Below, piece by piece: positions 54,497 through 59,716 of a DNA stretch of 64,000 bases. The position numbers and the translations under genes are program-made. Origin of the DNA: Salinirussus salinus (lineage in GTDB: Archaea > Halobacteriota > Halobacteria > Halobacteriales > Haloarculaceae). Below the pieces are notes generated by a model. The model was not told the DNA's origin. It made no database searches and saw only the letters and a program-made list of their open reading frames with translations. Positions within the stretch are counted from its first letter, which is position 1. Every line of letters begins with the position of its first letter. The DNA is taken from NCBI RefSeq assembly GCF_009831455.1, contig NZ_WOWO01000002.1:62001-126000 (forward strand), written 5' to 3'.

Positions 54497-57400
54497 ATGG
54501 ACCAGTCCGACCTCACCTCGTGGGAGGACGGCGAGCGGCCGGCCGCCGAGGCCGAGGCTGTCGCCGGTAACGGGGGGACCGACGCCGACCTGGTCGACAC
54601 CGCCGAGCACCGCTATCCCGACGCCGACGGCACTGTGGAGTTCGCGGTCGCACAGGTCGACTACACCGTCGAGGGCCGCGGCGACGACGAGTACCCCGTG
54701 ATGCACGTCTTCGGGCGGACCGCCGACCTGGACCCGGTCCACGTCCAGGTCGAGGAGTTCCGCCCCTACTTCTACGCGCCGGTCGACTCCGTCACGGAAG
54801 GCGAGCTCCGCCAGTACGACCGCATCACCGGGTGGGAGTACGAGGACGACGACGGCGACCCCTACGAATCCATTCGGGGGGAGAAACTCGTGAAGGTCTT
54901 CGGCCAGACGCCGCGGGACGTCGGCCAGATGCGCGACGACTTCGAGCACTACGAGGCGGACATCCTCTTTCCCAACCGGTTTCTGATAGACAAGGACATC
55001 ACCAGCGGCGTCCGGGTCCCCCGCCGCGAGGACGGCGACCGGCTCCGGGTCCACCACGAGGAGGTCGAGCCCGTGGAGGTCGACGCCGAACCCCGGGTCA
55101 ACACCTTCGACATCGAGGTCGACGACCGCTCGGGGTTCCCGGAGGACGGCGAGGAGCCGATCATCTGTCTCACCTCGCACGACTCCTACGACGACGAGTA
55201 CATCGTCTGGCTCTACCAGTCGCCGGAGGGCGTCGACGGGCCGGAGGCACTCGAGGGGTACGACCCCATCGAGGGCGACTTCGAGGCCGACGTCCGCACC
55301 TTCGGGACGGAGGAGGCGATGCTCGGCTCCTTCCTGAACTACATCGAGGGGACGGACCCGGACATCCTGACGGGGTGGAACTTCACCGACTTCGACGCCC
55401 CCTACCTCATCGACCGGCTGGACGTCCTGGCCGACCGGAACGACACGGACCACGACCTCTCCTACGACCGCCTCTCCCGGGTCGACGAGGTGTGGCGGAG
55501 CGACTGGCAGGGCCCCGATGTCAAGGGTCGGGTCGTCTTCGACCTCCTCTATGCCTACCAGCGCACGAAGTTCACGGAACTGGACTCCTACCGGCTGGAC
55601 GACGTCGGTGAGCGCGAACTCGGCGTCGGCAAGGAGCGGTACGCCGGCGACATCGGCGACCTCTGGGAGCAGGAGCCCGAGCGGCTGCTGGAGTACAACC
55701 TCCGCGACGTGGAGCTGTGTGTCGAACTGGACCGCGACCAGGACATCGTCGCCTTCTGGAACGAGGTCCGCCAGTTCGTCGGCTGCAAGCTCGAGGACGC
55801 CACCACCCCAGGCGACGCTGTCGACATGTACGTGCTGCACAAACTGCACGACGAGTACGCCCTCCCCTCGAAAGGGCAACAGGACAGCGAGGACTACGAG
55901 GGCGGCGCGGTCTTCGACCCGATCACCGGCGTGCGCGAGAACGTCACCGTGCTCGACCTGAAATGTTTCAGTAGCGACACTGAGGTGCTGACTCCGGAGG
56001 GTCCACGCGACATTACTGACATCCAGGTCGGAGACCCGGTCTACACGCTCAACCCGGACACCTTCGAGTGCGAGGTGAAACCCGTCGCCGAGACGCACGA
56101 GTACGAGAACGAATTCGGTGAGCTTCACCACCTCTCGGGCAACACACACGACTTGAAGATCACCGAGAATCATCGGTTCCTCGTTTCCAGCCAGCGCGGG
56201 TGGGACGAGCAGTCACCCGGCGACTTCGAGTTCGCGGAGTACCGGAACATTCCGGAGTACGAGCGCTTCGCGTTCCCACAGCACGAGCCGATGGATGGCC
56301 GTCGTCCGGAGACATTTGATTTCGTCAGCCGGGTTGAGGAGGGACAGGTCGTCGCCTATTCCGACGACGACTTGCGCCGGTTCAGAAACCGGATGCCCGA
56401 GTCAGTTACCGAGTCGCTGGACCTCGCACACGGTACGTCGGAAGCGGCCGGACTGCAGCAGAAAGTCGGAAAGTATCTCATTCCCCTGTCAGTCTACCGT
56501 TCCAACCGCGAGGTCATCGACGAACACGCCGACGACGTGTTTCTCAAATACGACAGACAGCACCGCGAGACTCCACTTGCGTTCGAGATGGAGAACTGGC
56601 TTGCGTTTCTCGGCTGGTTCGTTACGGAGGGCAGTACCGATGCCGACAACGGGCGACTGACGCTGCATCAGAGGGACCCCGATGGCCGGGAGGTGATCCG
56701 GTCGTTGCTCGACCGGATGGGCATCAACTACAGCACCGACGACCGAGGGATCAACGTCTCGAACCAGCTCCTGGTCGACTGGCTCGAAAATAACTGCGGC
56801 GACGGATACGCGGAGAAACGCCTCCCGGACTGGCTGTTCGACCTCGACGGCGAACTGCTGTCGGTCCTGCTCGAAACGGTGGTTGACGGAGACGGCAGTC
56901 GGACGGACTCCGGGCTCCGGAAATTCTGGACCAAAAGCGACGTGCTCAAGGACGATATCGTCGATATTTCCGTGCGTTGTGGGCACAAACCGACCGTCAC
57001 GAAGGAGTCCGACGGCACGTGGTACGTCTCCATCGGCAAGCGCGGTTCGTTCAAAAAAGAGACGAACGCGACGGTCGAAGAACACGACGGGACGGTTCAC
57101 TGCATCACCGCTGAGGACAACCACGTCGTCATGGCCGGTCGGAATGGCCACTTCCAGTGGGTCGGCCAGTCGCTGTACCCCATGTGCATGGTGACGACCA
57201 ACGCCAGCCCGGAGACGAAAGTCGACCCCGACTCCTACGACGGCGAGACATACCGCGCACCCAACGGGACACACTTCCGGAAGGAACCGGACGGCGCCAT
57301 CCGGGAGATGGTCGACGAACTGCTGGCCGAGCGCGACGAGAAAAAGTCCCTGCGGGACGACCACGACCCCGAGGACCCTGCCTACGAGCAGTACGACCGG

Positions 57401-59716
57401 CAGCAGGCGGCGGTGAAGGTCATCATGAACTGCTTCACGCCGGATACGGAAGTCCTGACGCCAGAGGGTGTCCGGAACATCCGGGCTCTCGACGTCGGGG
57501 ACGAGGTGTACTCGCTTGATCCGGAGACGATGGAGATGGAGGTGAAGCCGGTCGTCGAGACCCACGCCTACCCCGACTACGACGGGGAACTGGTCGATAT
57601 CGAGACCAGCAAGATCGACTTCAGCGTGACCCCGAACCACCGGATGCTCGTCCGTAAAAACGAGACGAACGGCGTCACCGAGGACAGGTACCGGTTCGTC
57701 GAAGCGGGGGAGTTGGACGACACGACGAACTACGAACTCCCACACGACTGGGACGGGCCGGACGGCGAACGCCTAGAAGCGGTCGACTTTACTGACTACG
57801 CCAGCGAGTACGAGGTCTGGGTCCGGCCGTCTGTACATGGCCATACCTTCGCTGCGGAGCTGGGGTACTACCCGGACAAAGTTCTGAAAAACGATATCGG
57901 CGAGGAGGGGTACGTGTTTGGACCCGAGGAGTTCGAGGAGCACAGACCGTACATCGAGGAGATAGCCGAGCGGACGTACGTTCACGCGGAATCGGGCCGC
58001 AAGTGGGTTCCGCGGACGTTCGATGCCGACGATTTCCTCGACCTGCTCGCGTGGTACATCACCGAAGGGAACGTCTACACGTCCGAGACGAGGGAGTTCG
58101 GCGAGAAGACGCGCGGCTCGGCGACGACGGTCAAGATTGCACAGAACACCCCCGAAACGAACATCGCTGCCGACGGAGGCAGCCACGCAGAGATCGGTGC
58201 GCTGCTCGACCGCATGGGGTTCGACTACTACGTCGACGACCGGAGCTACCAGTTCACCTCGAAACTCGTGGGTGACCTGCTCCGTGACCTGTGTGGTGAC
58301 GGAAGTCACGAGAAGCGTGTTCCGGAGTTCGTGTTCGACTTGTGCCGGTCCCAGAAGCGCCGGTTTCTGGAGACGCTCATCGACGGTGACGGGGACCGCC
58401 AGCCGAACTCCTGGCGGTACACGACGGCGAGCGACCAGTTGCGCGACGACGTCCTCCGGCTCTGTGCACACCTCGGTCTGACCGCGAACTACAACCGGGA
58501 CAGCGGGACGTGGCGGATCTACGTCACGGAAGACAGCAAGAACACGCTCCGGATGCACCGGAGTGCCGACCGGAGCAAGGCGGCAGACGGTGTTTACTGT
58601 GTGACCGTCGAGGACAACCACACGCTTCTGGCCGGCCGAAACGGCAAATTCCAGTTCGTCGGCCAGTCGCTCTACGGCGTTCTCGGGTGGGACCGGTTCC
58701 GGCTCTACGACAAGGAGATGGGTGCTGCTGTCACTGCTACGGGTCGTGAGGTGATCGAGTACACCGACGAAGTCGTCGCAAACGAGGGGTACGAAGTCGT
58801 CTACGGTGACACCGACAGCGTTATGTTACAGTTGGGCGACATTTCTGTCGAGGACGTTGACGGCCCGGTCGAAGTTACCGATGAGATGCGGGAGAAACAT
58901 CCTGAGATGGCCGAGGAGGAACTCGAAACCATTGCCGCAACCATCCGAAAGGGGTTCGAACTCGAGGATGTGATCAACAGTTCCTACGACGAGTTCGCCC
59001 TCGAGCGGCTGAACGCCGAGAGCCACCGCTTCGAGATCGAGTTCGAGAAGCTCTACCGGCGGTTCTTCCAGGCGGGGAAGAAGAAGCGGTACGCCGGCCA
59101 CATCGTCTGGAAGGAGGGCAAAGACGTCGACGACATCGACATCACGGGCTTCGAATATCAACGGTCGGACATCGCGCCCATCACCAAGGAAGTCCAGAAG
59201 GGGGTCATCGACATGATCGTGATGGGCGAGGACCCGGAGGCGGTCAAATCGTACCTCCACGACGTGATCCAGGACTTCCGGGCGGGGAACGTCGACCTCG
59301 ACGACGTGGGCATCCCGGGCGGGATCGGCAAGCGGCTGGACAACTACGACACCGACACCGCGCAGGTCCGGGGCGCGAAGTACGCCAACGCCGTGCTGGG
59401 GACGAACTTCCAGCGCGGCTCCAAGCCCAAACGCCTCTACCTCGACCGTGTCCACTCCGATTTCTGGGAGCGCATCGAGCGCGAGGAGGGGCTGGACCCC
59501 TCGACGGACCCGGTGTACGGTGCCTTCCGGCGGGACCCCGACGTCATCTGTTTCGAGTACCCGGACCAGATCCCCGAGGAGTTCGAGGTCGACTGGGACA
59601 AGATGCTCGACAAGACGCTCAAGGGGCCGATCGAGCGGATCATCGAGGCTCTGGGCATCTCCTGGGAGGAGGTCAAGACCGGCCAGGAACAGACCGGGCT
59701 CGGCTCGTTCATGTAA
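54497..59716 (+). CDS. polB: Family B DNA polymerase precursor with two inteins
   Basis: Main replicative polymerase candidate with 3'-5' exonuclease. The precursor is 1739 aa; removing the two inteins (402 and 412 aa) leaves 925 aa, a normal archaeal PolB size. Exonuclease motifs are FDIEVDD (Asp205, Glu207), GWNFTDFDAP (Asn295, Asp300) and YNLRD (Tyr400, Asp404). The polymerase SLYP motif is interrupted after DLK by intein 1 and NSxYG by intein 2; the YGDTDS motif (58802-58819) is intact. ATG 54497 is chosen because the open frame runs far upstream into rad50. A tract of 3' extein just after intein 2 has unusual codon use. Confidence 0.96.
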   Translation: MDQSDLTSWEDGERPAAEAEAVAGNGGTDADLVDTAEHRYPDADGTVEFAVAQVDYTVEGRGDDEYPVMHVFGRTADLDPVHVQVEEFRPYFYAPVDSVTEGELRQYDRITGWEYEDDDGDPYESIRGEKLVKVFGQTPRDVGQMRDDFEHYEADILFPNRFLIDKDITSGVRVPRREDGDRLRVHHEEVEPVEVDAEPRVNTFDIEVDDRSGFPEDGEEPIICLTSHDSYDDEYIVWLYQSPEGVDGPEALEGYDPIEGDFEADVRTFGTEEAMLGSFLNYIEGTDPDILTGWNFTDFDAPYLIDRLDVLADRNDTDHDLSYDRLSRVDEVWRSDWQGPDVKGRVVFDLLYAYQRTKFTELDSYRLDDVGERELGVGKERYAGDIGDLWEQEPERLLEYNLRDVELCVELDRDQDIVAFWNEVRQFVGCKLEDATTPGDAVDMYVLHKLHDEYALPSKGQQDSEDYEGGAVFDPITGVRENVTVLDLKCFSSDTEVLTPEGPRDITDIQVGDPVYTLNPDTFECEVKPVAETHEYENEFGELHHLSGNTHDLKITENHRFLVSSQRGWDEQSPGDFEFAEYRNIPEYERFAFPQHEPMDGRRPETFDFVSRVEEGQVVAYSDDDLRRFRNRMPESVTESLDLAHGTSEAAGLQQKVGKYLIPLSVYRSNREVIDEHADDVFLKYDRQHRETPLAFEMENWLAFLGWFVTEGSTDADNGRLTLHQRDPDGREVIRSLLDRMGINYSTDDRGINVSNQLLVDWLENNCGDGYAEKRLPDWLFDLDGELLSVLLETVVDGDGSRTDSGLRKFWTKSDVLKDDIVDISVRCGHKPTVTKESDGTWYVSIGKRGSFKKETNATVEEHDGTVHCITAEDNHVVMAGRNGHFQWVGQSLYPMCMVTTNASPETKVDPDSYDGETYRAPNGTHFRKEPDGAIREMVDELLAERDEKKSLRDDHDPEDPAYEQYDRQQAAVKVIMNCFTPDTEVLTPEGVRNIRALDVGDEVYSLDPETMEMEVKPVVETHAYPDYDGELVDIETSKIDFSVTPNHRMLVRKNETNGVTEDRYRFVEAGELDDTTNYELPHDWDGPDGERLEAVDFTDYASEYEVWVRPSVHGHTFAAELGYYPDKVLKNDIGEEGYVFGPEEFEEHRPYIEEIAERTYVHAESGRKWVPRTFDADDFLDLLAWYITEGNVYTSETREFGEKTRGSATTVKIAQNTPETNIAADGGSHAEIGALLDRMGFDYYVDDRSYQFTSKLVGDLLRDLCGDGSHEKRVPEFVFDLCRSQKRRFLETLIDGDGDRQPNSWRYTTASDQLRDDVLRLCAHLGLTANYNRDSGTWRIYVTEDSKNTLRMHRSADRSKAADGVYCVTVEDNHTLLAGRNGKFQFVGQSLYGVLGWDRFRLYDKEMGAAVTATGREVIEYTDEVVANEGYEVVYGDTDSVMLQLGDISVEDVDGPVEVTDEMREKHPEMAEEELETIAATIRKGFELEDVINSSYDEFALERLNAESHRFEIEFEKLYRRFFQAGKKKRYAGHIVWKEGKDVDDIDITGFEYQRSDIAPITKEVQKGVIDMIVMGEDPEAVKSYLHDVIQDFRAGNVDLDDVGIPGGIGKRLDNYDTDTAQVRGAKYANAVLGTNFQRGSKPKRLYLDRVHSDFWERIEREEGLDPSTDPVYGAFRRDPDVICFEYPDQIPEEFEVDWDKMLDKTLKGPIERIIEALGISWEEVKTGQEQTGLGSFM
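55964..57169 (+). other. Intein 1 in PolB, at the DxxSLYP motif (pol-a site)
   Basis: Residues 490-891 of the precursor, 402 aa. It begins with Cys in LK|CFSSDTEVLTPEG (splicing block A) and has block B NTHDLKITENHRFLV with the conserved His. Two LAGLIDADG-type motifs, LAFLGWFVTEGS (with Glu) and LLETVVDGDG (with Asp), mark a homing endonuclease that looks intact. Block F/G is HVVMAGRNGHFQWVGQ, followed by extein Ser of SLYP. The C-terminal residue is Gln with penultimate Gly, instead of the usual Asn with His. Codon use is less G/C-biased than the flanking extein. Confidence 0.94.
57431..58666 (+). other. Intein 2 in PolB, at the KxxxNSxYG motif (pol-b site)
   Basis: Residues 979-1390 of the precursor, 412 aa. 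It begins MN|CFTPDTEVLTPEGVRNI and has block B IDFSVTPNHRMLV. Endonuclease motifs are LLAWYITEGN (about 58044-58073) and FLETLIDGDG (about 58363-58395). It ends CVTVEDNHTLLAGRNG then KFQFVGQ, followed by extein SLYG, again with C-terminal Gly-Gln. The strong likeness of both ends to intein 1 suggests the two are related by descent. Relaxed codon use continues past its end into the extein. Confidence 0.94.

Follow-up and report, generated by a model that had tools for sequence, protein, structure and literature searches.

The nearest known case to the one described here is the group I intron of plant mitochondrial cox1, whose co-conversion tract has, in one recorded instance, been retained after loss of the intron (PMC3192709). 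As in that system, synonymous changes lie beside the site of a homing element, mainly downstream of it. The cox1 tracts are short and made up of fixed diagnostic haplotypes, whereas the codon halos described below are diverse, AT-ending, class-wide, found at several sites in two unrelated genes, and common at empty sites. In haloarchaea, co-conversion of an adjacent extein residue is reported for the MCM-d intein (PMC10643990), which likewise indicates that haloarchaeal inteins carry flanking extein sequence along; the accessible part of that report concerns splice-junction codons, and neither a codon-usage halo nor a scar at an empty site is described there. Homing of the Haloferax volcanii polB intein, by endonuclease cleavage and homologous recombination or gene conversion, has been demonstrated (PMC3024317), and this intein is the polB-c intein according to PMC10643990. 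That system resembles ours in being intein homing into a haloarchaeal polB, but flank conversion and codon use are not reported for H. volcanii in the accessible text of PMC3024317. We found no account of how codons are used near intein sites in the openly licensed literature, nor, in the searchable literature, of intein-site halos that occur in two replication genes and persist without inteins.

The window is a stretch of 64,000 nucleotides from Salinirussus salinus and contains, on the forward (+) strand, a polB gene (54497-59716; PF00136, PF03104) encoding a family-B DNA polymerase with an extein of 925 aa and two inteins; all features of this gene given below lie on the same strand. Intein 1 (55964-57169, 402 aa) occupies the pol-a site at DLK/SLYP, where the slash marks the insertion point. 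Its boundaries (C...GQ/S) were taken from the sequence, and it gives partial profile matches to Hint_2, Intein_splicing and LAGLIDADG_3. Intein 2 (57431-58666, 412 aa) occupies the pol-b site at MN/SLYG, contains a LAGLIDADG-like domain (Hint_2, LAGLIDADG_3), and is 83% identical to the closest pol-b inteins (L043, L188). The pol-c site is empty: the YGDTDS motif (58802-58819) runs uninterrupted across the junction 58810/58811 (YGD/TDS), the point at which pol-c is occupied in L053, L060, L061, L194, and L204.

The run of AT-rich codons at 58667-58984 is a genuine anomaly. The sequence-only reading had counted about 30 A/T-ending codons among the first 105 extein codons after intein 2 and about eight among the 87 between the inteins; a recount gives 31 of 106 and 8 of 87, set against 29 of 489 in the extein before intein 1, 84 of 402 inside intein 1, and 68 of 412 inside intein 2. 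That reading also correctly had the tract spanning YGDTDS and its empty pol-c site, and placed the return to G/C-ending codons near 58985, where we find a sharp end at about 58984 followed by 13 A/T-ending codons in 242. The top-scoring extein segment is 58712-58981 (30 of 90 codons A/T-ending), with a likelihood ratio of 25.3, while the maximum over 2000 shuffles was 11.9, less than half that value. Amino-acid composition is rejected as the cause, since extein codons 592-683 (58715 to about 58990) contain 30 A/T-ending codons against 5.9 expected after correction for amino acid and gene. Around pol-c itself, codons 612-635 contain 7 against 1.3 expected. What does not hold is that the tract starts directly at intein 2: the adjoining 17 codons (58667-58717, 51 bp) form a clean, GC-ending flank with a single A/T-ending codon (GTT), and the excess sets in at 58721. 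The first AT-rich codons (58718-58759, extein codons 592-606) are then followed by an AT-rich segment at 58760-58984.

Across 464 kb of the same genome (313 predicted genes), sampled in regions chosen so as to include MCM and the large subunit of PolD (DP2), the strongest internal islands of A/T-ending codons are those in MCM and polB; ORF 5' ends, out-of-frame ORFs, and one island inside the DP2 intein were set aside. DP2 was rejected as an extein codon island because its island sits inside the intein. The DP2 gene (L344, C3:101146-106311) contains an intein of 517 aa, and the extein downstream of it begins with 15 clean codons followed by 6 A/T-ending codons against 0.9 expected at +15 to +30, repeating the arrangement that follows intein 2 in polB.

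A survey of 111 haloarchaeal polB genes from across Halobacteria, scored for A/T-ending codons with correction for amino acid, places the anomaly in a wider pattern. The highest 15-codon windows in the whole gene are codons 619-633 (3.2x) and 567-581 (3.0x), with values elsewhere of at most 1.7x. These two peaks, of about 3x, lie at the pol-c and pol-b intein sites and are about equally high in intein-free genes; in intein-free polB the anomaly at pol-c, again about 3x, is centred on the empty site. A circular shift test on the 87 intein-free genes gives p = 0.0012. Each halo reaches about 15 codons to either side of its site. Synonymous divergence between congeners, corrected for amino acid and balanced over genera, also tops at pol-b and pol-c, exceeding 1 in 13 of 13 genera at pol-c and in 11-12 of 13 at pol-b. 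No peak is present at pol-a or pol-d, both of which are flat in the 111 genes; pol-a is occupied in 13 of 155 genes. The conserved codons 716-770 of polB likewise have no halo (0.6-0.8x).

A comparable pattern was found in a second replication gene. In 60 MCM genes of Haloarculaceae, A/T-ending codons peak at intein site 331 (3.5x in intein-free copies) and in the region of site 411 (shift p = 0.0017, intein-free copies), and synonymous divergence is raised in 10 of 10 genera at the top windows. The MCM excess is broad over the AAA+ core (codons 300-430), where sites 358 and 397 are not cleanly separable. The MCM gene of the window's own genome (L277:715-2808, C4:181698-183791) is intein-free, yet has 13 A/T-ending codons against 1.4 expected at codons 316-345 and 12 against 1.5 at codons 400-424, with 36 against 35.3 in the rest of the outer gene. 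These two islands coincide with positions 331 and 411, where MCM inteins are known to insert. A conserved motif as the cause of the halos is rejected by two controls: Walker A motifs of 102 other genes show no A/T excess (0.83x), and none is seen in 18 MCM paralogues that share the motifs of MCM but lack inteins (0.90x at one site, 0.65x at the other), in which the A/T-ending background is higher (0.32) and the ratios are thus compressed. Both polB and MCM thus have halos at their intein sites, and equivalent motifs without inteins have none. The MCM gene of the congener (L313, G001 contig C205) has two inteins, at 331 and 411, and that of the window's genome none, the opposite of the situation in polB.

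The sequence-only reading was right in that intein sites are involved, and exchange of flanks beside pol-b inteins can be seen in close pairs. In Natronomonas, the synonymous differences between an allele with a pol-b intein (L160) and an empty one (L164) start exactly at the insertion site (codon 576) and end near codon 638, about 62 codons downstream. Two Halomicrobium species (L047, G060; L206, G061), both with pol-b inteins, have identical polB from about codon 560 to at least codon 760, with inteins 99.1% identical, against about 9% differing synonymous codons over the comparison regions; this is apparently the outcome of recent homing that left a long tract downstream. Between genera, near-identical pol-b flanks occur in 63 of 3692 intein-free pairs and in none of 5393 pairs with an occupied allele. 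Pristine flanks are present in 3 of 80 occupied alleles versus 47 of 244 empty ones (Fisher p = 0.0005, without phylogenetic correction). At pol-b, the number of A/T-ending codons is overdispersed about 5x, compared with about 1x in controls, suggesting that some alleles are pristine and others scarred. In phylogenetically independent pairs, halo strength at pol-b shows no link to present occupancy (3.8 same versus 4.1 opposite), and the pol-c halo is no stronger in occupied alleles than in empty ones. A common consensus sought for the flanks of pol-b inteins was not found, occupied flanks being no closer to one. The pol-b flank of the present gene is occupied yet clean.

The only other genome of the genus compared is the metagenome-assembled Salinirussus sp. 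LUM.44 (L038/L125; 78% complete), whose polB has no intein. Outside the tract, the two polB genes share about 90% DNA identity. They are 93% identical over 58718-58759, and the AT-rich codons at 58721-58759 are nearly the same in the congener; the sequences then diverge abruptly from 58760 and rejoin at 58985. The distance from TDS to EFEK is 80 residues in the window's long allele versus 53 in the short allele of the congener, a difference of 27 codons, of which alignment gaps place 21 at approximately 58841-58903 and the remaining six at approximately 58922-58939. The long allele is closest to that of Salinibaculum (L039) in both tract and backbone (0.86 each), in agreement with the backbone tree, and it has 16 A/T-ending codons in common with the g20 relative L045 against 7.3 expected. 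The congener's short allele is closest to those of Natronocalculus, Natronomonas, and Haladaptatus, all distant in backbone. We infer that it is more probably the congener, rather than the window, that carries an imported allele, and put this no more strongly because long alleles are similar everywhere and the backbone tree has 13 switches between the long and the short form.

Within the set of long alleles, similarity of the tract goes with the backbone (r 0.84) and has no significant relation to the intein (partial r 0.13, p 0.16). The presence of the long allele nevertheless goes with that of the pol-b intein, in about 7.8 same versus 0.3 opposite of 12 independent pairs (median p 0.016, range 0.004-0.125), and outside Haloarcula 17 long alleles have the intein and three do not (two partial MAG ORFs and XH8). 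From this association on independent pairs, the long allele has probably hitch-hiked with the pol-b intein in other genera, for example in Haloferax (larsenii, elongans). A pol-c intein is absent from the congener (L038) and from the nearest relatives (L039, L045), and present in the wider clade in L053 (G098). Outside sources for the tract were rejected. A search of 2.9 million viral contigs gave no relative of it, identity to haloviral PolB proteins over the C-extein does not exceed 35%, and the closest plasmid PolB is 57% identical. A recent donor is rejected on a best DNA match of 79% among 392 genomes of the order.

The sequence-only reading had offered two origins for the tract, co-conversion during homing of intein 2 and a relic of a former pol-c intein. 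According to the former, intein 2 on homing into pol-b copied donor DNA downstream of itself. The Natronomonas pair is a real tract of such geometry, and the association of long allele and pol-b intein also speaks for it. In the present gene, however, tract and intein lie 17 clean codons apart. That reading had named as contrary evidence the same codons in intein-free relatives and a tract phylogeny matching the species tree, and both were found: 58721-58759 is shared with the intein-free congener, and the nearest relatives of 58760-58984 agree with the rest of the gene, Salinibaculum being equally close in tract and backbone. Fresh co-conversion by intein 2 is therefore not supported, and with similarity following the backbone instead of the intein, and no donor above 79% DNA identity in the order, we consider it quite unlikely here. 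Alternatively, the segment, a variable palm-domain loop, may have been exchanged by ordinary homologous recombination, with the inteins irrelevant. The 13 changes between long and short form and the apparently imported allele of the congener agree with this, but it leaves unaccounted for the second peak at pol-b, the replication of the pattern in MCM, and the tendency of long alleles to occur together with pol-b inteins, and is in our view very improbable.

Two further explanations address the halos as such. Hosts may have been selected for silent changes in the target of the homing endonuclease, with codons drifting away from the preferred ones. The peaks are narrow and their codons diverse, and in this genome recoding is seen at the empty pol-c site and the two empty MCM sites but not in the flanks of the occupied pol-a and pol-b sites, which are clean; these points speak for such escape. 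Class-wide, the prediction fails, occupied alleles being the least often pristine; moreover, halos of about 15 codons each way exceed a target of 14-40 bp, and single synonymous changes are reportedly tolerated by the endonucleases (PMC3024317). Escape predicts pristine occupied sites, so the near-identical intein-free flanks, the rarity of pristine occupied flanks, and the overdispersion favour a scar of invasion over silent escape, which we regard as unlikely. Finally, active-site motifs might need non-preferred codons for reasons of translation or RNA, with inteins merely inserting there too. Intein-free alleles do carry halos about as strong as those of occupied ones, yet none is seen at motif A (pol-a), at codons 716-770, at the 102 Walker A motifs, or in the 18 MCM paralogues, and many alleles are pristine; such an intrinsic property is a very improbable cause.

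The tract is thus probably an old scar rather than the fresh mark of the neighbouring intein. We lean, if only slightly, towards reading it as an inherited, lineage-modified form of the codon halo of intein sites, left by past intein gain, conversion, and loss. Over recurring rounds of homing, with short flanking stretches co-converted and the intein later lost precisely, the codons beside the site would have been exchanged and become diverse, leaving a scar that would persist longer than the intein. In this gene it would chiefly be the scar of the empty pol-c site and the surrounding long allele, and not of recent homing by intein 2. Points against this reading are the independence of halo strength at pol-b and pol-c from present occupancy, the lack of a shared consensus in occupied flanks, the flat pol-a site, the clean though occupied pol-b flank of this gene, and the breadth of the MCM excess. 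A relic of pol-c is accordingly the better of the two origins proposed earlier because similar halos are present at empty intein sites class-wide and in the intein-free MCM of the same genome; the former pol-c intein of this lineage is itself putative. Candidate sources of the AT-ending bias are a relaxation of codon selection where homing sweeps recur, mutagenic repair of breaks, and AT-richer donors. Donors in the class are mostly GC3-rich, and import alone therefore cannot account for it.

More tentatively, halos at heavily used intein sites in essential genes of GC-rich haloarchaea may be durable scars, consisting of about 15 relaxed, AT-ending, fast-changing codons on each side and outlasting the intein, from which past invasions could be mapped in intein-free genomes; selfish homing might then measurably lower codon optimisation in the replisome of the host. 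Estimates of intein gain and loss commonly rely on presence or absence alone. Should empty sites retain scars, past invasions would become recognisable and countable in intein-free genomes, and the homing-cycle model would become directly testable. A selfish element would also, if this is true, leave a lasting mark on essential replication genes, in their codon use as well as in their protein alleles, accompanied in several genera by the 27-residue PolB loop.

Salinibaculum sp. KK48 (G144) has further forms of polB. A plasmid of this strain (NZ_CP129994, contig C3) encodes a second, AT-richer polB (L059) with an extein 61% identical and a long loop like that of the long allele. Elsewhere in the same genome, polB is present as two ORFs (L058:866-4710) with an ORF of 291 aa between them, whose NUMOD3 motif (PF07460) suggests that a homing endonuclease of the free-standing kind has inserted behind KKKRYAG. 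In G105, G108, G110, G121, and G199, polB is also broken at about this position.
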